DNA from: Synechococcus sp. PCC 7335
Lineage (GTDB): Bacteria; Cyanobacteriota; Cyanobacteriia; Phormidesmidales; Phormidesmidaceae
NCBI RefSeq assembly: GCF_000155595.1
Contig: NZ_DS989904.1
Location: 3,337,720 to 3,401,719 of the forward strand
Reading direction: 5' to 3'
DNA length: 64,000 nt
This document shows, in pieces, positions 35,528-51,359 of this stretch; positions within the stretch are counted from its first letter, which is position 1; each line of letters opens with the position of its first letter. Below the pieces are notes generated by a model. The model was not told the DNA's origin, made no database searches, and saw nothing but the letters and a program-made list of their open reading frames with translations. The position numbers and the translations under genes are program-made.

Positions 35528-35760
35528 GGTGGCAACTCCTTAACGAAGAATTGAACAAAGCTTATCAAGCTCATCTGGCCGTAAATCGGACAAAGGTGCG
35601 AAAAAAGTATGCAAAAGCACTGAGGGCTAAAAGAGAATGTTCTTTTGGCTACAATCTTTCCTGCTCAGCAGGGTTCTGTAGTGGTTCCTATAACGCAAAG
35701 TCTCTTTTTAGAAAGGGGGTGTAGTCTATAACCTATATATGTGACGTGTCTAGGTGCTGC

Positions 35761-38700
35761 ATGACCTCTGAAGAAGTCTTAAGCCTCGTTGAGCACGCGA
35801 TCTACAGCAGTGATCGCGTTAAACGTAGTCTCAGTCCACTGCAGCGGACAGTTTTTCGCTATGTCTGGGAGGGGTCGTACTCCTATGGCGAAATCGCGCA
35901 GCACTCGGGGTATGAGCTGAGCTATGTGAAACAAACAGGCTCACAGCTTTGGCGAATGCTCTCTAAGGTCCTAGAAGAGAAAGTCACTAAGAACAATGTT
36001 CGAGTTGTTCTACAGCGCAATATACAGTCAATTGCTGCGCTATCTCTTGAATCATCGAATTCGCCTGTGGTCGATTGGGGCGATGCGGTAGATATCTCTT
36101 GCTTTTATGGTCGTCAGGCTGAGCTGACGCAGCTAACAAACTGGGTCGTTAGCGATCGCTGCCGACTCATCGGTATTTTTGGTATGGGCGGCATGGGTAA
36201 AACAGCCCTCTCGATTCGATTGGCCCAGCAGCTAGAGCAAAAAGGCGGCTTCTCTCGGATTGTATGGCGCTCGTTAAGAGATGCTCCGCCCCTGCCTGAC
36301 TTGATTGCAGATTTACTTCAGGTGCTTGCGCCCTCACGTCCGTCTAATCAGGCTGCTGGAACAACTCAGACGATAGGGCAGAAGCTTTCTGAGCTGATTA
36401 AATGTCTAAGAGAGCATCGCTGCCTGATTGTACTAGACAATGGCGAAACGGTTACGTCGGCTCAGGTAGGTTCGTTATCAATCGCTTCATCAGACCACAG
36501 CAGAAAAGATCGCCTAGCACCAGGCTACAGCGCTTCCAACTACAGCGCTTCCAACTACGACCTGTTCTGGCAACAGTTGGGACAAACCACACACCAGAGC
36601 GCGGTTGTTCTCACCAGCCGGGAAAAACCGACCAGCATTGCCGCCCATGAAGGTAATACGCTACCTGTTCGCTCGCTGCGGCTAACCGGATTGCCCGCAG
36701 CGTTGGGCCGTACGCTGTTTGAGCTTAGAGGGAGCTTCAGCGGCACAGCAACAGAATGGCAACAGCTCGTCGATTACTATGCGGGTAACCCTCTGGCGCT
36801 GAAAATGGTCGCTGCAGTGATTCAAGAGTTGTTTAATGGACAGCTAGCGGATTTTCTAGATTGTGCAAAATCGGGCGGCGCTATCTTTGGAGATATTGAA
36901 GATCTGCTGAGACAGCAGATAGGGCGGCTTTCGGTCCTACAGCAACAAACGCTTGACTGGCTAGCGATCGCCCGTCAGCCCATCACAATCTCTCAGATCC
37001 GCAGCTACTTTGTTCCTGTCTTAGGCTTAGAGCTAGGAGAACTGCTCGCGGCGCTATCCGCATTAGAGCGTCGCAGCCTAATTGAAAAACTATCGCCTAA
37101 CCCAGAAACTTCACAGCCTAGCTTCACGCTGCAGCCAGTGGTAATGGAATACGCCACGCATCGATTAATTGAGCGCGTTTGCGAACAAATGCTCACCCGT
37201 CAGATGGTTTCTCACTCATCGCTGGCTTCTCATGCGCTGATTCAAGCTCAAGCGAGAGATTATGTTCGTGAAACTCAAACCCGGCTGATTCTCAAACCGA
37301 TTGCCGATCGACTGCTGGCGTTGAGCAGTCCAGCTAACTGGGCACAGATCATTCAACAATGGTTAGACGAACTGCGCCAAATACCATCACAGATAGGCTA
37401 TGCAGGCGGAAACTTAATCAATTTACTGGTTCAGATGCAGGTTGATTTGAGTGACTGGGATTTCTCCCGCTTGCCTATTTGGAGCGCTTATCTCAAAGGC
37501 GTTGATTTACATCGAGTCAGCTTTGTTGCTTCTGATCTGACTCACTCTGTCTTTAACGAAACATTTAGTCAGGTGCTATCAGTGGCTTTTAGCCCAGACG
37601 GAAAGCTGTTGGCCACTGGCGATATCAACCACGAAATCCAGATTTGGCAGAGTGCAGATGGGAAGCCGTTACTCAGCCTGACTATGGACGAAGGCTGGGT
37701 TTGGTCAGTGGCCTTTAGTCCAAACGGTAAGCTGATTGCGGGTAGCGCCAACGGTGCGGTTCATCTTTGGCATGTGCAGAACGGAGAGTTGGTGCAGTGC
37801 TTTGACGATTACAGTGATCGCGTCTTCTGCGTTTCATTTAGTCCCGACGGCAAACTACTCGCAACCGGTAGCGAAGATCGCCAGGTGAAAGTCTGGGATC
37901 TCAAGACAGGGCACCTATTGCACCAGCTAAAGGGACATACCGATGAGGTACGCTCTGTTGCTTTTTTACCAACACAACAACCTTCTTCTACCCTAGCTAG
38001 CGCTAGCTATGACGGGACAGTACGCCTTTGGCATGCGATCAAAGGAGAGTGTTTAGCAGTACTCGGTGGTTCTGAATTAAGTGATTCCGAATTAAGTGGT
38101 TCCAATGTAAGCGATTCTGACCGAAGCGATTCTAATCGGCTCAGCTCTGTTGCTTTTAGCCCCGATGGCCTGGTCTTAGCTAGCGGAGGTGCATCTGGAT
38201 ACCTTCATCTCTGGCACGTCAAAACAAAGAAAGCATGGCAGCTGCTGGACGCTCAGCAGCCTATCCGCAGTATCGCCTTTAGCCCTGATGGCAATACGGT
38301 GGCCGTTGGGGCCAACGATGGTAATATTTGGCGTTGGAATTACCGCACCGGAGAGAGCCTGCAGATGCTCTCAGGCCATACGAGCTGGATTAGCGCCATT
38401 ACATATAGCCCTAATCAGATGCTAGCGAGCGGCAGCGAAGATCGCTCCGTACGAATCTGGCGGGGTAACCTTTGTCTGCGGCAGCTACAGGGCTACAGTA
38501 ACGGCATCTGGTCAGTCGCGTTCAACAGACAAGGGACTCTTTTAGCGAGCGGTAATCAGGATCGAGATCTGAGGCTGTGGTCCGTTCAAACAGGTGAGCT
38601 ACTCAGCACGCTAAGAGGTCACAAGAGCTGGATTTGGTCAGTCAGCTTTAGCCCTACGCGGCCTACGGTCGCTAGCAGTAGCGAAGACCAAACGATTCGG

Positions 38701-39513
38701 ATCTGGGACATTCAATCTCAGCAGCAAAAGTACGTTCTTACAGGTCACGGAGATGCGGTTTTAAGCCTACTTCATGCACCAGATGGCAGTCTTTGGAGCG
38801 GTAGCTTGGACGGCACTCTGAAGCAATGGTCAGAAGAGGGCATCTGCCTACAAACACTCAATAGTCACGACGGCGGTGTCTGGACTGTGGCCCTTAGTTT
38901 AGATGGGCAGCTATTGCTGAGCGGCAGTCAAGATCAAACTATCAAACTTTGGAATCCGGTGAGCGGTAGCGTTATTGATACCCTCAATGGCCATCAAAGC
39001 TGGATTCGCTCGGTGGCGATGAGCCCCGATTGTAAAACGCTGCTGAGCGGCGGTGCAGATGGCATACTCAAAATTTGGCAACGCGATCGCAACGGAAAGT
39101 ACCGCTGCCAACAAACCTACGCTGCACATGGAGGCCCTATTCTGTCAATCGCTATCCACAAAAACGGACGCCAGGCAACAACTAGCAGCACCGATAGCAC
39201 TATCAAACTTTGGGAGTTGAAGACAGGCATTTGCCAAGAAATTCAGCAAGCGCACAATCGCTGGATAAAATCTCTTACCTACAGTCCAGATGGCTCAACG
39301 CTAGCAAGCTGCAGTCAGGACGCAACGATCAAGCTTTGGCAAGTAGCCTCTTCTCCCCCTTGGCTGATGTTGACTCAGACTCTACGGATGCCCAGACCTT
39401 ATGAGGCGTTAAACGTTGACTGCGCAAGCGGACTGAGCATCGCACAAAGGTCTGCGCTGAAGCAACTCGGTGCAATAGAAAACGGGATGATTCATCCAAG
39501 GGTGACACTTTAG
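35761..39513 (+). CDS. STAND NTPase: vMAP-type N-terminal HTH, NB-ARC and 14 WD40 repeats
   Basis: About 1250 residues. Residues 1-90 are a helix-turn-helix-like domain found at the N-terminus of cyanobacterial vWA-MoxR-associated proteins (SPLQRTVFRYVWEGSYSYGEIA). The NB-ARC NTPase follows, with P-loop GMGGMGKT at 141-148 and Walker B LIVLDNGE at 222-229. A pentapeptide-like linker (about 555-590) leads into 14 WD40 repeats (about 595-1215), the number for two seven-bladed propellers. Such proteins are signalling switches in stress, cell death or phage response; no effector domain is seen. Two 15-base tandem repeats are embedded. ATG 35761 is used; GTG 35746 is in frame. Confidence 0.85.
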   Translation: MTSEEVLSLVEHAIYSSDRVKRSLSPLQRTVFRYVWEGSYSYGEIAQHSGYELSYVKQTGSQLWRMLSKVLEEKVTKNNVRVVLQRNIQSIAALSLESSNSPVVDWGDAVDISCFYGRQAELTQLTNWVVSDRCRLIGIFGMGGMGKTALSIRLAQQLEQKGGFSRIVWRSLRDAPPLPDLIADLLQVLAPSRPSNQAAGTTQTIGQKLSELIKCLREHRCLIVLDNGETVTSAQVGSLSIASSDHSRKDRLAPGYSASNYSASNYDLFWQQLGQTTHQSAVVLTSREKPTSIAAHEGNTLPVRSLRLTGLPAALGRTLFELRGSFSGTATEWQQLVDYYAGNPLALKMVAAVIQELFNGQLADFLDCAKSGGAIFGDIEDLLRQQIGRLSVLQQQTLDWLAIARQPITISQIRSYFVPVLGLELGELLAALSALERRSLIEKLSPNPETSQPSFTLQPVVMEYATHRLIERVCEQMLTRQMVSHSSLASHALIQAQARDYVRETQTRLILKPIADRLLALSSPANWAQIIQQWLDELRQIPSQIGYAGGNLINLLVQMQVDLSDWDFSRLPIWSAYLKGVDLHRVSFVASDLTHSVFNETFSQVLSVAFSPDGKLLATGDINHEIQIWQSADGKPLLSLTMDEGWVWSVAFSPNGKLIAGSANGAVHLWHVQNGELVQCFDDYSDRVFCVSFSPDGKLLATGSEDRQVKVWDLKTGHLLHQLKGHTDEVRSVAFLPTQQPSSTLASASYDGTVRLWHAIKGECLAVLGGSELSDSELSGSNVSDSDRSDSNRLSSVAFSPDGLVLASGGASGYLHLWHVKTKKAWQLLDAQQPIRSIAFSPDGNTVAVGANDGNIWRWNYRTGESLQMLSGHTSWISAITYSPNQMLASGSEDRSVRIWRGNLCLRQLQGYSNGIWSVAFNRQGTLLASGNQDRDLRLWSVQTGELLSTLRGHKSWIWSVSFSPTRPTVASSSEDQTIRIWDIQSQQQKYVLTGHGDAVLSLLHAPDGSLWSGSLDGTLKQWSEEGICLQTLNSHDGGVWTVALSLDGQLLLSGSQDQTIKLWNPVSGSVIDTLNGHQSWIRSVAMSPDCKTLLSGGADGILKIWQRDRNGKYRCQQTYAAHGGPILSIAIHKNGRQATTSSTDSTIKLWELKTGICQEIQQAHNRWIKSLTYSPDGSTLASCSQDATIKLWQVASSPPWLMLTQTLRMPRPYEALNVDCASGLSIAQRSALKQLGAIENGMIHPRVTL
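36526..36555 (+). repeat. perfect 15-bp tandem duplication inside the NB-ARC region
   Basis: TACAGCGCTTCCAAC occurs twice back to back (36526-36540 and 36541-36555), encoding a doubled Tyr-Ser-Ala-Ser-Asn in the NTPase domain. It keeps the reading frame. Confidence 0.8.
38068..38142 (+). repeat. five imperfect 15-bp repeats encoding an SD-rich insert between WD40 blades
   Basis: Five pentads of the form (G/D)-S-x-x-S/L (GSELS, DSELS, GSNVS, DSDRS, DSNRL) are inserted between the fourth and fifth WD40 repeats, with matching 15-base DNA periodicity. This probably forms a flexible acidic loop and may vary in length between strains. Confidence 0.7.
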
Positions 39514-39721: not shown

Positions 39722-42700
39722 TTACTCAGGAAATATTCGTTGCATAATTATCGCTCGAATTTTCTGTAAGTTGACTGGCTTAGTTAAATGTTCATCAAAT
39801 CCAGCTGCTGTAGCTCTTGCCTTATCATCTAGCTGTCCGTAACCACTGATAGCAATTAAAAAGGTATCGCGGAATATCGACTCCGAGCGAAGAGTTTGAG
39901 CAACAGCATAGCCATCCATCTCCGCTGTCAATCCAATGTCGCTAATAACTACGTCAGGTTTGAGCTGCCGTGCCAAGGCTATTCCTTGTTTACCGTTATC
40001 TGCTAGATCTACAATAAACCCTGCATTGTTGAGGTACATCTGGAGAAGGACAGCAGAATCTTCGCAATCTTCGATCACTAAAACCCGCTTAGATTTTTCA
40101 GCTATAGACGGATGCTGCGATTGACCCTCAGTCAGTTTAGTAGCTGATGTAGCAGAGGATTCAGGCTTTGAAGGCAAAGCTGGTTCGGCTATCTCTGTTT
40201 TCAAACGAGGTAGTGTTATCGTCACAACTGTTCCTTGATCTATCCCTGGACTATCTACCTCTATCTGTCCTTCATGTAGTTCAATAATCCCCTTCGCTAG
40301 AGGTAAGCCTAGCCCTAGACCTCCACTACGAGACAAGCTACGGTTCTCTTGACTGAACGCTACAAAAATGCGAGAAAACGCTTCTTTAGACATACCAATA
40401 CCTGCATCGGTGATTCGGACTGTAGCGAACTCCGTGTTTAGCGTCGTAGAGATTTTAACAGTGCTGCCAGGATGAGAAAATTTGATTGCGTTTAATAGGA
40501 CATTGGAAAATGCTTGGAGCAACCGGACAGAATCTCCGTTGATCCAAACAGATGATTCATAGAGTGTGGTATTGAAAGAGATTTCTTTTTGTGCCGCTGC
40601 GTTCTGTGCATCAGTAACTACATCGCGTAATAGCTGAGATAGATCTAATGGCTCTTGATGTAACTGGATCTTTTTGTAGGCAATGCGCGAAGCATCTAAC
40701 AGGTCGTTTACTAAGCGAGTAAGTTGATTCAGTTGACGTGTAGAAATTGCTAGCATTCGCTGCATCCGCTCTTTTCGCGTTTGCTCCTCTAAGAGCGATG
40801 CTTTCATCTGTGTACTTATCTGTGTGCTTATCAGCTCTATACTGCCACTCAGTGCATTTAGAGGATTTCGTAGTTCATGGCCTAAGGCAGCTAAAAAGTC
40901 ATCCTTACGACGATCGGCTTCCTTCAAAGCTTCTTCGTTCTGTTTGCGCTCGGTGATGTCATAGTTGACACCAATCATCTTGATGGCATTTCCCTGCGTA
41001 TCACAAATGACTCTGGCCTTCGCAGCTAGCCATCGCAGTGGGCTACCTTCGCAGCTGATACGAAACTCCGTGTCAAATTCTGTTTTCTGCTCAATAGCAG
41101 CCGCTACTTTCTGTTGAACTAAAGGAATATCTTCTGAATAGATCTGGTGATAGTAAAGCTCTAAGCTAGGGTCGTTAGCCTCGTTAGGTTTTAACCCTAG
41201 TAGGCCATACTCTATATCATTCCAAGCTGATCCGCCTGTAACAATATCTATCTCCCAAATGCCGATGTTACCAGCGGTTGTTGCTAAATCTAGTCTTTCT
41301 CTACTCTTTTCTAAAGCTGAGGTTGTAGCTTCTCTTTGTAAGGTTGCAGCCAAAGCATTGGCTAGCGCCTGTAGAAAAGACACATCTTCTGGTGTAAACG
41401 GGTTCCTGCTTGCTCTATAGCTAGCTAGTACACCATATATTTCATCCGCTGGCCCATACAGAATTGCACTAATTCCGCTGACTAGATTCAGTTTCCTTAG
41501 CAGCGGCGAATAGCTAAAACGATTCTCTTGGGAAAAATCTTCAACAGTGACAGGTTGTTGAACGCTTAGGGTATAGCCTAAATGGGAGTCAGTAACGCTG
41601 ATCGTAACTTGCTCTTGAGAGTATAGCGGCCAGCCACTACCACTTTTTAACGCCAGGATTTCGGGGCTCTCAGATTGATAGGCAAACAGGCCACAGGTGT
41701 CCGATTCAAGGGTCTGACAGACGATTTCGGTAGCGCGATCGCAAACGGATGCCGCACTATGGTCCTGTAGTGCATAGGTCCCTAATTCAGCAATAACACT
41801 CTGTCTTTGAGCCCACCGTTCCGCACGGTTTCTGGCTTGGTGCAGGCCTGTCACGTCGATAAATGTGAGTACCGTTCCATTAATTACATTTTCGAGTGTA
41901 CGGTAGGGCATAATCCGCATCTTGTAGTAGATCCCCTTACCTCTATCGTAAACTTCCCTTTCTATAGGGATAAGTGATCGCAGCACTTCTCGAACATCTG
42001 TTGCAATGCTGACGCCTTCTAAAGATAAAGAAATATCGGTAACAGGCCTACCCACATCTGTTCCAATCAGATTAAACAGATCTACCGCAGCTGGTGTAAA
42101 CCGCTTGATTCTCAACCGCTCATCTAAGAAAACCGTCGCAATTCGTGTACTTTCAAATAGATTTTGAATATCACTGTTAGCCGTATCGAGTTCTTCAACT
42201 TTATTGCGGAGCTCTGTATTGACTGTCTCGAGCTCTTCGTTGATTGATTGCATCTCTTCTTTGGAGGTTTGCAATTCTTCATTAGAAGACTGCAATTCCT
42301 CATTCATAGAAAGCAGCTCTTCATTAGCCGATTTCAGCTCTTCGTTGGAAGTCTCAATCCCTTCAACGGTTTGTCTCAAGTCCTCTTTGGTAACACGCAG
42401 CTCATCTTCTAGCTGTTTGATAATTGGTGCTTCTGCCTTTGGCTGACGATCGCTGGCCCTAGCAGTTTCATAGGTAGTGGGTTTTCCTACATCTTGAAAG
42501 ATTACCAACAGTAGGCGACTAGCCTCCGCTGATTCTTCAAACGATTCTTTAACAGGACGGATAATCAAATTAAGAGTAATGATTTGATTTTCACTCTCAA
42601 TAGAAACTTGCTCACGAACGACCTTGCGCTGCAAATCTCTTGCCGTCTGAATTGCTGATCTCAAACCTGTTCTTAGACCCAACCTAGCAACATCGAACAA

Positions 42701-44656
42701 GTTGTTGCTAGGCACACCCTGAGCTGGTTCTAGATACTTACCAGTGCGCCCGAAAAAGTAAACGATCTCATTTTGTTCATTGATAATGACACAGGCCGGC
42801 GTGTAGTCTTGTAGCAGTACTTGCTCTATAGACTTTGTAAATCGAGAATGACGACTGGCTGTTGTTTGAGTTCTGGGCGCAGGCAGTTGACGATAGCTAC
42901 TCAGATCAACTAAAGGAAAGTCAATCTGTGGAGGCGCAATTGCTGTTCTGCGTTGAAAAAGCCGATGAGACTTATTAGCAATCCGGAAGAGTTCACTATA
43001 ATACGTAGAAAGATTTTCTGAACCGCCTAGAAACAGATAGCCACTTTCTCTAAGCGCGTAGTGAAACAGCGGCATTAACCGCTTCTGTAGCGTAGAGTCG
43101 AAATAAATTAAAAGATTGCGGCATGAGATCAGATCGAGGCGAGAAAAGGGCGGATCACTGATTAGGCTATGCTGAGAGAAGATGCACATCTCTCTAAGGG
43201 GTTTCGCCACTTGATACAGACCGTCTTGTTTGAGAAAGAACCGCTCTAAGCGCTCTGGCGTGATTTGCTCAGCAATGCTTTCAGGGTAGCGAGCATGACG
43301 GGCTTTTTCCAGAGCTTGCTCGTCGATATCAGTAGCAAATATCTGCACTTGCAGCTGCGTACGCTGCCGTTCCATCTCTTCTGCTAATAGAATCGCAATG
43401 GAGTAGACTTCTTCTCCGGAAGAGCATCCTGCTACCCAAACGCGAATAGATTTACGGTCTGCGCAATCTTGAACTAACGTAGTAATTGCTGTTTGCTGTA
43501 GAACCTCAAAAGCTTCGGGGTCACGGAAGAAGTAAGTTACGCCAATCAGCAAATCTTTGAACAATAGATCAATTTCTTCATTATCTGATTTGAGATAGGC
43601 GACATAAGCTTCAACTGAAACCGTCTGCGTGATTTGAATCCGTCGTTGAATTCGACGAATTAAAGTGCCTTGCTTGTAATTGCTAAAATCGTGACCAATA
43701 CGGCGGCGTACCAATGAGCAAATCTGATTAAGATAGTCAGCCGCTTCAGGCAGCATACCATCTTCACCTAGATTTGCTCGTAGCCCTTCGCGATGACGTG
43801 CATACTCAATTAGTTTGTCGGGAATGTCTTTAACTGGCAACACGTAGTCAACTAGCCCAGTGAGCACCGCATTACGCGGCATGCTGTCATACTTCGCACT
43901 CTCGCTATCTTGAGCGATCGCCAGCCCACCAAATTCTTTAATTGACTTCATCCCGATCGTGCCGTCGCTGCCCGTACCCGATAAGATCACGCAGACTGCG
44001 TTTTCCCTTTGATCTTCAGCTAGAGAACGAAAGAAGATATCAATGGGAGCGCGATGTCCTCTAGCCTGTGTTGGTGTGGAAAGCCGCAGTATGCCGTTGT
44101 CAACTGTCAAGGTTGCATTTGGCGGGATCACATAAACTTTATTAGGCTGCAGCCTTACTTCCTCAGTAATTTGAAGCACAGGCATCTGGGTCTCTTTGGC
44201 CAGTAGCTCTGATAGAAGACTGTCATGATCGGGTGCTAGGTGCGATATCAGCACGAATGCCATACCGCTATTCTCATCCATACGCTGAAAAAATGCTCGA
44301 AAAGCTTCTAAACCGCCAGCGGACGCTCCGATCCCCACCGTCAGGAAAGAATCTATCTTTGGAGTTGCCTCAATTGGGGTGACTGAAGCTGTTTGTGCTG
44401 TTATTTCTGTCTCTGCCAGCGTATTTTCGCCCGGTGTACTTGCTGCGCTCTGTATTTCTTCTTCAGCTACACGCTCAGTCTGCTGGTCATTAGCCTGTTG
44501 GTCATTAGTCTGCTTGTTATCTGTAAGGTCATCTGTAAGCTGTTGAGTGTGCGCCTGGTTATCGCATTCAGTGGCATTAGGCTCGTGCAAAAGGCTATTC
44601 TCTTGAGGTTCTTCGTTATTTGAGCTAGGTGAACCAGTAGAGGGATCAGACGCCAT
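39722..44656 (-). CDS. CheB-CheR-PAS-GAF hybrid histidine kinase with receiver domain
   Basis: 1644 residues. Order: acidic Gln/Asn-rich tail (1-100); CheB methylesterase (about 105-290, S112, H139, D231); CheR methyltransferase (about 300-570, with VWVAGCSSGEEVYS as SAM-binding motif); a long coiled coil of SNEEL repeats (750-830); PAS (about 830-935); GAF (950-1110); PAS (1115-1240); HisKA with H1260 in GHELRNP; HATPase; and a C-terminal receiver with phospho-acceptor D1573. This is a known architecture for two-component control by methylation-like chemistry. The signal is unknown. It lies just downstream of a stand-alone CheB on the same strand. Confidence 0.85.
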   Translation of the reverse strand: MASDPSTGSPSSNNEEPQENSLLHEPNATECDNQAHTQQLTDDLTDNKQTNDQQANDQQTERVAEEEIQSAASTPGENTLAETEITAQTASVTPIEATPKIDSFLTVGIGASAGGLEAFRAFFQRMDENSGMAFVLISHLAPDHDSLLSELLAKETQMPVLQITEEVRLQPNKVYVIPPNATLTVDNGILRLSTPTQARGHRAPIDIFFRSLAEDQRENAVCVILSGTGSDGTIGMKSIKEFGGLAIAQDSESAKYDSMPRNAVLTGLVDYVLPVKDIPDKLIEYARHREGLRANLGEDGMLPEAADYLNQICSLVRRRIGHDFSNYKQGTLIRRIQRRIQITQTVSVEAYVAYLKSDNEEIDLLFKDLLIGVTYFFRDPEAFEVLQQTAITTLVQDCADRKSIRVWVAGCSSGEEVYSIAILLAEEMERQRTQLQVQIFATDIDEQALEKARHARYPESIAEQITPERLERFFLKQDGLYQVAKPLREMCIFSQHSLISDPPFSRLDLISCRNLLIYFDSTLQKRLMPLFHYALRESGYLFLGGSENLSTYYSELFRIANKSHRLFQRRTAIAPPQIDFPLVDLSSYRQLPAPRTQTTASRHSRFTKSIEQVLLQDYTPACVIINEQNEIVYFFGRTGKYLEPAQGVPSNNLFDVARLGLRTGLRSAIQTARDLQRKVVREQVSIESENQIITLNLIIRPVKESFEESAEASRLLLVIFQDVGKPTTYETARASDRQPKAEAPIIKQLEDELRVTKEDLRQTVEGIETSNEELKSANEELLSMNEELQSSNEELQTSKEEMQSINEELETVNTELRNKVEELDTANSDIQNLFESTRIATVFLDERLRIKRFTPAAVDLFNLIGTDVGRPVTDISLSLEGVSIATDVREVLRSLIPIEREVYDRGKGIYYKMRIMPYRTLENVINGTVLTFIDVTGLHQARNRAERWAQRQSVIAELGTYALQDHSAASVCDRATEIVCQTLESDTCGLFAYQSESPEILALKSGSGWPLYSQEQVTISVTDSHLGYTLSVQQPVTVEDFSQENRFSYSPLLRKLNLVSGISAILYGPADEIYGVLASYRASRNPFTPEDVSFLQALANALAATLQREATTSALEKSRERLDLATTAGNIGIWEIDIVTGGSAWNDIEYGLLGLKPNEANDPSLELYYHQIYSEDIPLVQQKVAAAIEQKTEFDTEFRISCEGSPLRWLAAKARVICDTQGNAIKMIGVNYDITERKQNEEALKEADRRKDDFLAALGHELRNPLNALSGSIELISTQISTQMKASLLEEQTRKERMQRMLAISTRQLNQLTRLVNDLLDASRIAYKKIQLHQEPLDLSQLLRDVVTDAQNAAAQKEISFNTTLYESSVWINGDSVRLLQAFSNVLLNAIKFSHPGSTVKISTTLNTEFATVRITDAGIGMSKEAFSRIFVAFSQENRSLSRSGGLGLGLPLAKGIIELHEGQIEVDSPGIDQGTVVTITLPRLKTEIAEPALPSKPESSATSATKLTEGQSQHPSIAEKSKRVLVIEDCEDSAVLLQMYLNNAGFIVDLADNGKQGIALARQLKPDVVISDIGLTAEMDGYAVAQTLRSESIFRDTFLIAISGYGQLDDKARATAAGFDEHLTKPVNLQKIRAIIMQRIFPE

Positions 44657-44816
44657 AACCGTAGGTAACTTTGGATGAGAGTAGTAAGTATCTCTAACTA
44701 TTCTATGCGTCGGATTCCGGTTTGATATGAAATGACCACAAAAAGAGAGCTTTCTTGGATCTGCTTAACCCGGTATAAATGGGGACATCTTTAGATCAAT
44801 TCCATTCGTTAGAAGT

Positions 44817-45866
44817 CTAGCTAGAAGAGACATAACTAGAATTGGAAGAGATATGATTCGAAGTCGATGGAATGGACTTAGATGAAGTTGTGCTTTCTAC
44901 CAGAAGCTGACGAATGACTTGAGCATGAGCCTTCAACGTTTCTGATTGCTCTGCATATAGCTGCGCAGAGAGGTCTCTCTGTTGTTTTGCTTCGTTTTTA
45001 GCCATCAACAATGAGAGGTTAGCACGTTCTTCCATCGTACGCATTGCTACCCACAGTGCTTTCTCTAGCACCGAGTCCTGACTAGCCATCAAAGTTCTAG
45101 CTGTAAAACTATGACCGACATGGCACCGATAGCGCTTTACTGTTCCTCCCTCCATCTGCCAAAGAGGGCCATTACAGTCAGGGCAGTTCATTGGCACTTG
45201 ATGGCCGAGAAGATCCTCGCGGCGAATATCACTCACCGTTTGCTCTGCAATCTTGGCCTCCATCACAATGTCTTTGGGAACCTCGTGAGTGTCACTAGCA
45301 GCTTGGATAACTAGCTGGGTAATTTTCCCTCCGATCTGGTGAAGCGGTAGCTTATAGTCTACATCCACTTCTGCAAGTGCGTTCATCGGCATATCTGGGA
45401 AATCGGCGTCTTGAGGATCTTGAACGATTGCAAATCCTCCGCAGCGCTTTATGGCCGAGAGCCCAGCAGTCCCATCATCTAGATAGCCAGTGAGTACCAC
45501 CCCGATAGTCTGACCTGGGTAGGCGATCGCTGCTGAACGAAACATCGGGTCGATGGCCGGGCGATGTCGATTTTCTTTTGGGCCTCGGTGCAGTCGTAGG
45601 AAGCCCGGCTTTACGAGTAGATGAAAATCAGGCGGCGCTACATATACGTGCCCAGGCAAAATTGGCTCATTATCTTCGGCAGCCTTAGCCTTCAAAGGTC
45701 CAGCGTTGTCCAATAAAGTGGGTAGTACGCTTGGAGACTCAGCCAGAATGTGTAAAACGACGATAAAAGCAGCCTGTATGTCGTGAGAGAACTGTGAAAA
45801 AAGGTTGCGGAGTGCAGCTACCCCCCCGGCTGATGCTCCAACAACTACAACCCTGTGAGGGAGCAT
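44817..45866 (-). CDS. cheB: CheB-type protein-glutamate methylesterase with C-terminal Cys-rich extension
   Basis: About 349 residues. VVVVGASAGGVAALR holds the catalytic Ser, IVVLHILAESPS the His and LTGYLDDGTAG the Asp. A CPDCNGPLWQ ... YRCHVGHSF module, which looks like a zinc ribbon, follows, then a helical region and a Ser-rich end. There is no receiver domain, unlike enteric CheB. ATG 45866 follows AGGTG; GTG 45875 is also in frame. Same strand as, and 160 bases upstream of, the large CheB-CheR kinase, so probably part of one pathway. Confidence 0.8.
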   Translation of the reverse strand: MLPHRVVVVGASAGGVAALRNLFSQFSHDIQAAFIVVLHILAESPSVLPTLLDNAGPLKAKAAEDNEPILPGHVYVAPPDFHLLVKPGFLRLHRGPKENRHRPAIDPMFRSAAIAYPGQTIGVVLTGYLDDGTAGLSAIKRCGGFAIVQDPQDADFPDMPMNALAEVDVDYKLPLHQIGGKITQLVIQAASDTHEVPKDIVMEAKIAEQTVSDIRREDLLGHQVPMNCPDCNGPLWQMEGGTVKRYRCHVGHSFTARTLMASQDSVLEKALWVAMRTMEERANLSLLMAKNEAKQQRDLSAQLYAEQSETLKAHAQVIRQLLVESTTSSKSIPSTSNHISSNSSYVSSS

Positions 45867-46092
45867 CAGTCGCACCTATCTTGGTAATGTTGGTTCATAA
45901 CTTCTAATTCACAAATTTGTTTATTATCATTGCTACTAACGAATAAACGCTTTCTTGAAAAAGAATCATCTGCCTTTGGAAGGAAAGCTTAAGAAAAGTT
46001 TAATCAAGATATATATAGCTACGTTTTGTATCTGGGAGTATGTAGGTTAGTGACTGTCTATGGTTGTTTCTAATTAAAGGCTCCTAGACTTA

Positions 46093-48413: not shown

Positions 48414-51359
48414 TTATCGATGGGTAGATCCAGCACTGGCTCTGACTGGCAGAATTATCACAAATTCAGTTCCTTTCCCAGGTGTCGAGTCACAGTGTAA
48501 GGAGCCTTGATGCTTTTCTACCACAATCTGATAGCTAATAGACAAACCTAAACCAGTGCCTTTACCAACTGTTTTAGTTGTAAACATAGGGTCGAAAATC
48601 TTTTCTTTGATTTTTGGTGGCATCCCCAAGCCGTTGTCTGCGATGCGAATTTCAACCTGCTTACCAGCGTCTAGCACCTTAGTCTTGATCAATATTTTGG
48701 GGTCTGTTGAAATTGTAGTAGTCGATACCTTGGCCTCATCTTCCAACTGCTGAGCTAAAGAATCTTCTAATGCGTCAAGTGCATTCGCCAAAATGTTCAT
48801 AAACACTTGGTTGAGTGGGCCTGCATAACACTTCACTAACGGTAAATCACCATAGTCTTTCACCACTTCAATGGCAGGACGGACTCCATTCGATTTTAGG
48901 CGATGCCCTAAAATCAACAGTGTGCTGTCGAGCCCGCTATGTACGTCAATTTCTTTTACCTCTGCCTCATCGAGACGAGAAAATGTACGTAACGATAAGA
49001 CAATCTCTCGAATACGCTCTGTGCCTATCTGCATCGACGCTAGTAACTTTGGTAAATCGTTGTAGAGAAAGTCCAAGTCGATCTCATCTGCAGCCTTATC
49101 AACTTCATCGCCGGGATTAGGACAGTGGGTACGGTAAAGATCGATTAACCGTAATAAGTCCTGGATATATTCTTTTGCATATTCCACGTTACCGTGAATG
49201 AAGTTGACTGGATTATTGATTTCATGGGCAACTCCAGCTACTAGCTGTCCTAGGCTGGACATCTTTTCCTGTTGGATCAGATTTGTTTGCGCTTGTTTTA
49301 GCCCACTTAATGCTTGTGATAGTTCAGCCGTGCGCTGTTTTACTCGATGTTCTAGCTGCTGAGTCAGTTCTTGTAGTGCTGTCTCAGTTTGCTGACGCAT
49401 GGTTATTTCCTGCTGAAGCTGATGGTTTTGTTCCTCTAGCTCATCTTCTGCTAGTTCGCGGTTTTCCTGACTAAGGACAAAGAGCCAAACAGTAATCCCT
49501 CCTAAAACAAGCAGTACGGAATATACTTCAGTCATCATCCTGCGAACTGGTTCGCTGTTCAACTGAACATTGCTCAAGGTCGATTGATATAAAAACCCAC
49601 CTATGATAACAGCAATGCTACCGGATAATAAAAGAAACAATATAGTAAAGCGAATAATTCGAATACCAAGCTGAGGAGCAACTTTTCCCTGAAATGCTAG
49701 GTTTGCAATTTGCCTAGATAAAATGCGACCTTGCCCTGTAGGCTTACAGCTGTCATGGCAATGAGCATCGAGGCTACAACATAATGAGCAGATTGTCCCA
49801 TCATAAACGGGACAAAAAGCCATATCAGCTGGCTCATAGGACTGTTCACAGATACAACAACTCAGTAGAGAATCTTCTGGGAATGTATCTAATATCGTAT
49901 TCGGGCGAGCGATATAGTATCTGCCTTTGGTCAGTATTGCAATGATGGGTGAAAGGGTGAATGCAAGACTTAGTGCAATAAATGGTGAATAGGCCTGAGC
50001 GTAGTCTCCAAATACCCCCACAAAAGCAATGATTGAGATAATTGAGGCAATCCCCATTGACCCAAATCCGACTGGGTTGAAATTATAGAGATAGGCTCGC
50101 TTGAACTCTATATAGGAAGGGCTAAAACCCAACGGTTTGTTGACGATGAGATCGGCAACGAGTGCTCCAATCCAGGCAAGCGCTATGTTGGAATACAGTG
50201 CCAGGACTGATTGAATGGTTTGGAAAACGCCTAACTCCATGAGCAAGAGGGCAATCGCAGTATTAAAAACGAGCCAAACCACTCGTCCTGGATGGCTGTG
50301 AGTGATTCGTGAGAAAAAGTTCGACCATGCCAGTGAACCAGCATAGGCATTGGTTACATTGATTTTAATCTGCGAGACAATGACAAAGAAAGTGCTAACA
50401 AACAGCACTACTCCAGGGTCAGAAAACATATCAGAGAAACCGGCCATATACATCTGGATCGGTTCCTTCGCCTGAGCGATCGAAGCGCCATGCCGGATAG
50501 CTAAAGAAGCGAGGAAAGCCCCTCCAATTTGCTTTGCCATTCCCATCAAAATCCAACCTGGCCCCGCCAAAATCATCGCCATCCACCAGCGTGAACGATT
50601 CTCATGAGTTTTATCTGGCAGAAACCGCAGATAGTCTACTTGCTCTCCTATTTGAGCAATAAGAGATAAGGAAACCGTAGCAGCCATCCCAAATAGAAGC
50701 GGATGAAAGTTGGCGCCACTAGGCGAAGCGCCCGAAAAAGTTTTCCAGTAGCTAAGCGCGTCTGGTTCCTTCAAATAGACAAACACATAGGGAGAAATCA
50801 TCAAACTTAGCCAAATAGGTTGCGTCCAAAGCTGCAACTGACTAATTAATGTCACTCCATAAAATACGAGTGGAATAATAATGATTGAGCACAGAACATA
50901 GCCGAACGCTAGCGGTAAGTGGAAATATAGTTTCAATGCCTGCGCCATAATGGCAGCTTCTAGCGCAAAAAAGATGAACGTGAATGAGGCATAAATTAGA
51001 GATGTAATAGTCGAGCCGATGTAGCCAAACCCTGCCCCTCGCGTTAGCAAGTCCATATCAATATTATATTTTGCGGCGTAGTAGGTAATAGGAACGCCTG
51101 TGAGAAAGATAATGATGCCAGAAATGACAATTGCCCAGACAGTATTGCTGAAACCATAACTAATGGCTAAGGCTCCCCCGATCGCCTCTAAAGCCAAAAA
51201 CGAGATCCCACCTAGCGCGGTACTAGCAACTGAAAATTCTGACCATTTACGAAATGACTTTGGTGCATATCGTAGTGAATAGTCTTCTAGTGTTTCATTC
51301 ACGACCCAAGTGTTGTAATCGCGTCGTTCTCGTACTACTTTGCGCGCTGTTGTAGCCAT
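48414..51359 (-). CDS. NCS1 permease - Cys-rich knuckle - histidine kinase fusion
   Basis: 981 residues. Residues 1-480 are a full NCS1 (nucleobase:cation symporter-1) permease with about 12 hydrophobic segments, starting with [18 protein letters not shown]. Residues 498-538 are a Cys-rich patch ([33 protein letters not shown]) resembling a zinc-binding knuckle. Two more membrane segments (about 570-590 and 612-630) and a coiled coil lead to HisKA (H712 in VAHEINNP), N-box N859 and ATP lid DNGLGMP (908-914), and GTGLGLS. I infer a transporter acting as sensor (a transceptor) for a nucleobase or ureide. No receiver domain is fused. Confidence 0.85.

Follow-up and report, generated by a model that had tools for sequence, protein, structure and literature searches.

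Synechococcus sp. PCC 7335 encodes a protein whose N-terminal half is predicted to have the fold of an NCS1 carrier and whose C-terminal half is a histidine kinase. The gene lies in a stretch of 64,000 nucleotides of contig NZ_DS989904.1, the whole of which is called the window here. The protein is best explained as a sensor kinase with an NCS1-fold input, either a former or a still active carrier, and its family as one responsive to a small amide-type nitrogen compound (formamide, acetamide or urea); we give this reading a probability of about 0.6. Ligand binding in the pocket would alter the balance between the outward and inward states of the carrier, and a Cys knuckle and a helix hairpin would relay this change to a helical linker, which would set the autophosphorylation of H712. 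The phosphate acceptor in many relatives would be a response regulator encoded by an adjacent gene, through which formamidase, amidase or urtABCDE genes would be switched. A first-pass annotation had suggested that the protein may report nitrogen supply, which is plausible by way of small amides or urea.

One reading frame from carrier to kinase

The complete frame of 981 residues that the first-pass annotation had described, naming no strand, was confirmed as a single minus-strand ORF with 0 internal stops, running from ATG to stop; the plus strand of the same interval is stop-rich (Table 1). Misassembly of two genes or a chance fusion was ruled out by the homologues: among 101 distinct rows, 81 carry a fused C-terminal part, 15 are stand-alone and 5 are cut by contig ends. 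HisKA and HATPase_c both score above their Pfam cut-offs, H712 lies within HEINNP, and the N, G1, F and G2 motifs of histidine kinases are all there; the earlier description of a permease-kinase fusion with an intact kinase, comparable to the CbrA-type sensors, therefore stands. The same Pfam scan of the fused protein returned nothing significant in the first 600 residues, no SSF (SLC5) domain at E values up to 10, and no STAC four-helix domain, for which Pfam may hold no model.

In an AlphaFold2 model (64-row alignment, mean pLDDT 82.6, pTM 0.64) the carrier helices are followed by the Cys-rich segment, helices at residues 562-596 and 602-675, and then the kinase. The modelled helices are compatible with 12 carrier helices, in agreement with the approximately 12 first counted. 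The hairpin probably consists of two further membrane helices, and the linker, part of a long helix directed toward the kinase, is probably a coiled coil.

Table 1. Features of the fused carrier-kinase gene, with positions counted from the first letter of the window
Feature	Position	Strand	Basis
Whole fused gene, 981 aa, ATG start, stop included	48414..51359	-	One uninterrupted frame
Predicted NCS1-fold carrier domain, residues about 24-485	49905..51290	-	VIA-align to CodB/Mhp1; hhalign to 21 NCS1 members
E58 in TM1	51186..51188	-	In 87/87 sensor-type rows; D57 with F/Q58 in 14/15 stand-alones
K332 in TM8, invariant	50364..50366	-	Aligned to CodB Thr278, Na2 site (role from the available text of PMC9379551)
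Eight-Cys knuckle, residues 501-538	49746..49859	-	Invariant in 27 rows, stand-alone carriers included
Predicted helix hairpin, residues about 562-632	49464..49676	-	Model helices 562-596 and 602-675
Predicted helical linker to kinase, residues about 633-697	49269..49463	-	Model helix 602-675; low confidence at 675-694
HisKA, residues 703-798	48966..49253	-	Pfam PF00512, 33 bits (cut-off 26.9)
H712 phospho-acceptor	49224-49226	-	Motif position
HATPase_c catalytic domain, residues 848-973	48441..48818	-	Pfam PF02518, 81.8 bits (cut-off 26.4)

As had been noted before, no response regulator adjoins the fused gene; elsewhere in the family a regulator does adjoin the sensor. Elsewhere in the window, a frame of 1644 residues (39722-45875, minus strand) reads by eye as CheB-CheR-PAS-kinase-receiver, and a separate CheB-like gene lies close by on the same strand; one gene on the opposite strand separates these from the fused gene. 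A further frame of 1255 residues (35746-39513, plus strand) appears by eye to combine an ATPase part with many WD40 repeats.

The carrier half, its pocket and the Cys knuckle

The N-terminal half is predicted to be a distant, diverged subfamily with the NCS1 fold. The original NCS1 assignment held at the level of fold and profile but not at that of the Pfam model: PF02133 matches 0 of 27 permease modules of the family, nor does it match the window protein, and its sole match in the genome is a different gene. The NCBIfam model "cytosine permease" matches 8 of the 27 modules, weakly (best E 2.3e-7). When the 27 modules were compared by hhalign with 21 NCS1 members including E. coli CodB, the score was 95.3% (E 2.2e-8, 368 columns); the control membrane families UrtB and UrtC, whose alignments are small and little varied, reached 0.82% and 0.12%. 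A search of the family profile against PDB sequences gave a best E of only 4.7, and a PHROGs search with the window module alone gave no match.

At the level of structure, Foldseek returned Mhp1 and CodB as the best carrier matches. In VIA-align, the full-length model was closest to CodB (Z 33.2, 397 residues, rmsd 3.6), with Mhp1 at Z 26.1-28.0 and the first non-NCS1 row at Z 23.6, and a model of the stand-alone carrier L085 was also closest to CodB (Z 31.9). CodB and Mhp1 entries make up the top four rows for both models, other LeuT-fold families are lower, and for the carrier half NCS1 structures outrank SLC5 structures. The margin over the first non-NCS1 row is Z 2.5 to 9.6 for the full-length model and 0.4 to 7.1 for L085, where one Mhp1 entry ties with that row (Z gap 0.4).

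The pocket is another matter. The residue roles of CodB have been described, and the two aromatics that sandwich the base are reported to be conserved throughout NCS1 (available text of PMC9379551). Under four hhalign settings and MAFFT, a mapping at the sequence level, CodB Trp108, Phe204 and Gln105 align with F130, I234 and T127, and the aromatic sandwich of NCS1 is not found, F130 nonetheless being aromatic itself. The Na2 threonines of CodB, Thr278 and Thr279, align with the family-invariant K332 and with I333, and the Na2-site hydroxyls of NCS1 are likewise not found in the sequence alignment. Because the pocket residues of CodB are replaced, the carrier half is probably not a nucleobase carrier.

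It could still be argued that the domain binds a nucleobase-like ring and is a sensor of a nucleobase, hydantoin or allantoin, the ligand class favored by the first-pass annotation. Its NCS1 fold and the weak cytosine permease matches are in keeping with this, as is an ordinary NCS1 permease encoded directly behind a sensor of the window's own clade (L060:9215-10501), which starts 131 nt behind that sensor on the same strand and matches the 21-member NCS1 profile at E 5e-225. The permease of L060 slightly raised the standing of the nucleobase reading and lowered that of the amide/urea reading from 0.62 to 0.60. However, L055, a near relative of L060, has no permease next door, the three pocket residues are replaced, and the first 25 of 105 families encoded around the stand-alone carriers include amide and urea families and no nucleobase enzyme. 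With formamidase, amidase, Urt and urease genes as the recurrent neighbors of its relatives, a nucleobase or ureide ligand is not supported, and we consider such a sensor quite improbable.

The segment behind the carrier has the motif CxxC-x11-C-x7-C-x2-CC-x5-C-x3-C and may form a zinc treble clef. A patch of nine Cys had been annotated, and nine were indeed counted in residues 501-538, but only eight are invariant in the 27-row alignment of the family, C502 being an extra one. Were this knuckle the real sensor, of zinc, another metal or redox state, the carrier would only anchor or tune it, and the invariance of the eight Cys in 27/27 modules would suit that role. However, the alignment includes fused and kinase-less rows, and the kinase-less stand-alone carriers retain all eight Cys, which indicates that the knuckle belongs to the carrier and serves it. 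Moreover, the only metal or redox gene in the first 25 of 105 neighbor families is a chromate transporter at one locus. The knuckle is thus not read as a part of the sensor, and a sensory knuckle is very improbable.

Spread, outputs and gene neighborhoods of the family

One genome per species was scanned; of the 372 encoding stretches detected, the best 80 were kept, corresponding to 79 loci. Among the sources of these loci are cyanobacteria, Pseudomonas, methanotrophs, Thiotrichaceae, Oxalobacteraceae, acidophilic and other alphaproteobacteria, Campylobacterota, one Bacillota and one Verrucomicrobiota, and among them the carrier core is 60-80% identical across phyla. Within the window's class, the carrier was matched in 40 of 388 genomes, in one of them (G293) over 28 residues only. 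The class sample contains 6 further genomes of the window's genus, none of which has the carrier, although 4 have AmiE; the missing carrier in these genomes suggests that the window's organism gained the gene horizontally. Relatives of the carrier half are also present in 531 plasmid records, 342 of them from Klebsiella, and several are annotated as ArcB. One locus titled Bordetella parapertussis (L116, a metagenome bin) is near-identical to that of an uncultured Burkholderiales bin (L111), and its record name is probably wrong.

Among 65 C-terminal parts that were scanned, HATPase_c was found in 59, HisKA in 42, a receiver in 21, GGDEF in 4, EAL in 3 and SpoIIE in 1. One input module is joined to several outputs: histidine kinase, hybrid kinase, GGDEF/EAL and SpoIIE. 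The apparent SpoIIE phosphatase output, a tentative assignment from this single tail, is that of L122:5998-9225, where an ORF for an anti-sigma-like ATPase lies downstream. At L064:6001-8241 the fused frame ends after 746 residues, and the ORFs behind it look transposase-like by eye; this is probably a kinase broken by insertion.

In a quick unrooted tree with some long branches, the 15 stand-alone rows form one side of a branch (SH-aLRT 95). Fourteen of them have D57, F or Q at 58, S340 and S344, and the other 87 rows, the fifteenth stand-alone (L082) included, have E58, A or G340 and A344. Counted on from aligned CodB residues, positions 57-58 are placed just past the TM1 break and positions 340-344 in TM8. 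Since the stand-alones are one clade, the D57/E58 signature amounts to a single evolutionary contrast and not to repeated evidence.

This contrast bears on whether the fused domain both transports and senses, as a transceptor of the kind proposed for CbrA, with the passage of the amide or urea itself as the signal; this would be a compatible variant of the preferred explanation. The identity of the carrier core across phyla (in the 79 loci kept) points toward retained transport, and CbrA itself takes up histidine (available text of PMC7918813). On the other side, the sensors differ from the stand-alones at fixed TM1 and TM8 positions, as would be expected if transport had been abandoned, and Ks-Amt5 lost transport (available text of PMC5764959). 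A transceptor is unlikely, if worth keeping in mind, and the amide/urea sensor reading accommodates either outcome.

The preferred ligand class derives from gene neighborhoods in relatives. A marker set taken from annotated relatives (FmdA, FmdB, AmiE, AmiF, UrtA-E, UreC and UreG) was searched for within 6 kb at the 79 loci. Markers were found at 11/14 loci of D57-type stand-alones, 19/34 non-cyanobacterial sensor-type rows and 6/36 cyanobacterial sensor-type rows; some of the loci counted are near copies (six Pseudomonas) or lie on contigs too short for a verdict. When 108 ORFs around the 14 stand-alones were scanned with Pfam independently of the markers, CN_hydrolase (8) and FmdA_AmdA (7) were the most frequent families, with DUF3318 third (6) and urease parts at 2 (first 25 of 105 families). 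The DUF3318 gene recurs by cyanobacterial stand-alone carriers, such as at L081:2650-3333 and L095:4500-5234, and is possibly linked to amide uptake.

Many proteobacterial sensor genes are divergent from urtABCDE-fmdA and have a response regulator behind them. On Paraburkholderia pBN4, fmdB-fmdA-urtEDCBA is divergent from the fused kinase and its regulator, and on a Klebsiella quasipneumoniae plasmid the same holds for amidase-formamidase-urtEDCBA. Methylovirgula pHY1 has the order fmdB-fmdA, fused hybrid kinase, regulator, stand-alone carrier and amidase, its hybrid kinase being 58% identical to the carrier half of the window protein. The Methylobacillus sensor adjoins urease genes, and the Bacillota carrier (L120) has an amidase gene on either side and is upstream of a urease cluster. 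A riboswitch clue to the ligand (guanidine and others) was also sought; at gathering scores, the Rfam scan of 12 loci gave only 5_ureB_sRNA (2 loci, over ureC) and Yfr1 (1 locus).

Response regulators recur in relatives as well. A marker-detected regulator lies behind 20 of the 28 non-cyanobacterial sensors with room for one. Of the eight misses, four are Thiotrichaceae with a short receiver-like ORF downstream (by eye), and the other four (L089, L104, L107 and L122) have GGDEF or, tentatively, SpoIIE outputs. In a second cyanobacterial clade, a receiver-like ORF was seen by eye behind all 10 sensors that have downstream sequence, and AmiE comes next after it in four loci; the one such ORF that was scanned has Response_reg and MarR domains. 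Of the 40 carrier genomes, 20 encode a homologue of this REC-MarR protein at a distance of 1.3-1.8 kb behind the carrier match.

Co-occurrence across the 388 class genomes points the same way. FmdA (E < 1e-180) is present in 30/40 carrier genomes vs 66/348 others (Fisher p 1.4e-12) and AmiE (E <= 1e-80) in 19/40 vs 26/348 (Fisher p 8.9e-10), p-values that overstate independence because the loci and genomes share ancestry. The distance between FmdA and the carrier is no more than 7 kb in 10 of the 30 genomes, and that between AmiE and the carrier no more than 4 kb in 11 of the 19. Urease was dropped as a marker, as it does not discriminate (38/39 carrier genomes vs 36/40 other genomes tested).

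The window's clade, known systems and significance

While many relatives are linked to amide or urea genes and a regulator, the window locus and its clade are not. Across 24 loci of this clade there is no conserved neighbor, no family being common to more than 5, and a conserved partner gene was therefore rejected. When 101 ORFs located up to about 4 kb from 20 clade sensors were scanned with Pfam (first 25 of 149 families, with ORFs above 900 aa and 4 loci left out), no recurrent amide, nucleobase or regulator gene was found, and the commonest family was the MscS channel, with 4. As amide families are not among these first 25, amide genes are not general to contigs of this kind. It may be that the ligand has changed in the window's clade, or that the circuit is a different one, and that amide/urea sensing has been lost. 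The lack of a recurrent linked amide gene or regulator is consistent with such a loss, as is the finding that AmiE and canonical FmdA are both missing in seven clade genomes of the class sample (G000, G017, G019, G036, G050, G108 and G314). However, the carrier halves of the clade are 73-79% identical to that of the window protein and have the same fixed residues as the amide-linked sensors, so that a changed clade is rather unlikely.

In the window's genome itself, no AmiE was found at E 1e-80, and a REC-MarR partner encoded elsewhere was rejected, with no homologue at E 1e-25. There are five FmdA_AmdA matches, the best at 296 bits vs 600-648 for canonical members. This best match is encoded about 250 kb away (L157, C1:3626000-3642000), together with nitrile hydratase alpha and beta, an NMT1-type ABC carrier and an M20 peptidase; with an acetamidase/formamidase-like gene among its members, the group may be a nitrile/amide scavenging cluster. 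Urease and a UrtA homologue (47% identity) are encoded side by side. With these two present and an AmiE-type amidase not found, urea is the most economical ligand in this organism. The window's sensor is an orphan, and urea or an amide as its ligand, which follows from the family argument, is uncertain.

Several known systems offer comparisons. The family resembles the NCS1 carriers (CodB, Mhp1; PF02133) in fold and profile, but differs from them in its extra Cys knuckle, its signaling fusions, its replaced aromatics and Na2 threonines, and the lack of a Pfam match; it is only a diverged, outlying relative of NCS1. Ks-Amt5 has a trimeric Amt domain, which is unrelated to the LeuT fold. It is a kinase-fused nitrogen carrier that became a receptor by pocket changes, as the present sensors may have done, and in Ks-Amt5 these changes abolished transport (available text of PMC5764959). 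The SLC5/STAC kinases (CbrA, CrbS/MxtR and RpuS) likewise combine a LeuT-fold carrier with a histidine kinase, with hybrid variants, and RpuS/R regulates the carrier MctP (available text of PMC13022988, PMC7918813, PMC7096432, PMC9100948 and PMC5715377). The present family differs from these kinases in its carrier family, in the Cys knuckle and hairpin before the kinase, and in the amide/urea linkage of its relatives. As carrier family, linker and probable ligand class differ, it belongs with neither the CbrA type nor Ks-Amt5.

Amide metabolism provides two further parallels. The fmdCABDEF operon of Methylophilus methylotrophus, for formamidase and the uptake of short-chain amides and urea, is induced by formamide and urea and repressed by ammonia (available text of PMC10781810), and many relatives of the sensor adjoin such genes; the words "permease", "two-component" and "sensor" are absent from the available main text of that paper. 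An aliphatic amidase is also controlled by its substrate through AmiC/AmiR (available text of PMC13209695), but AmiC binds the ligand and acts as a negative regulator on the antiterminator AmiR, and is not a membrane carrier-kinase.

In a search of the open-access literature, with subscription journals outside its scope, neither a fusion of an NCS1 carrier to a kinase nor this sensor in amide operons was described in the text available. Carrier-sensor kinase fusions have been described as rare (available text of PMC13022988 and PMC11109136), and NCS1 is mentioned 0 times in the available text of PMC13022988, PMC11109136 and PMC7918813. The present family would thus add a widespread carrier-kinase fusion built from a carrier family that goes unmentioned there. 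The odds are about even that it constitutes an NCS1-derived receptor family for short-chain amides or urea, found in several phyla and with one input module (carrier fold, eight-Cys knuckle, helix hairpin and helical linker) for at least four output types, whose sister clade is an uptake carrier and in which D57/E58 and the TM8 serines mark carrier versus receptor. The carrier-only and sensor branches are a few fixed residues apart, and the change from carrier to receptor can be tested by exchanging these residues. The family also offers a candidate mechanism for the induction of amide and urea operons in many environmental bacteria.
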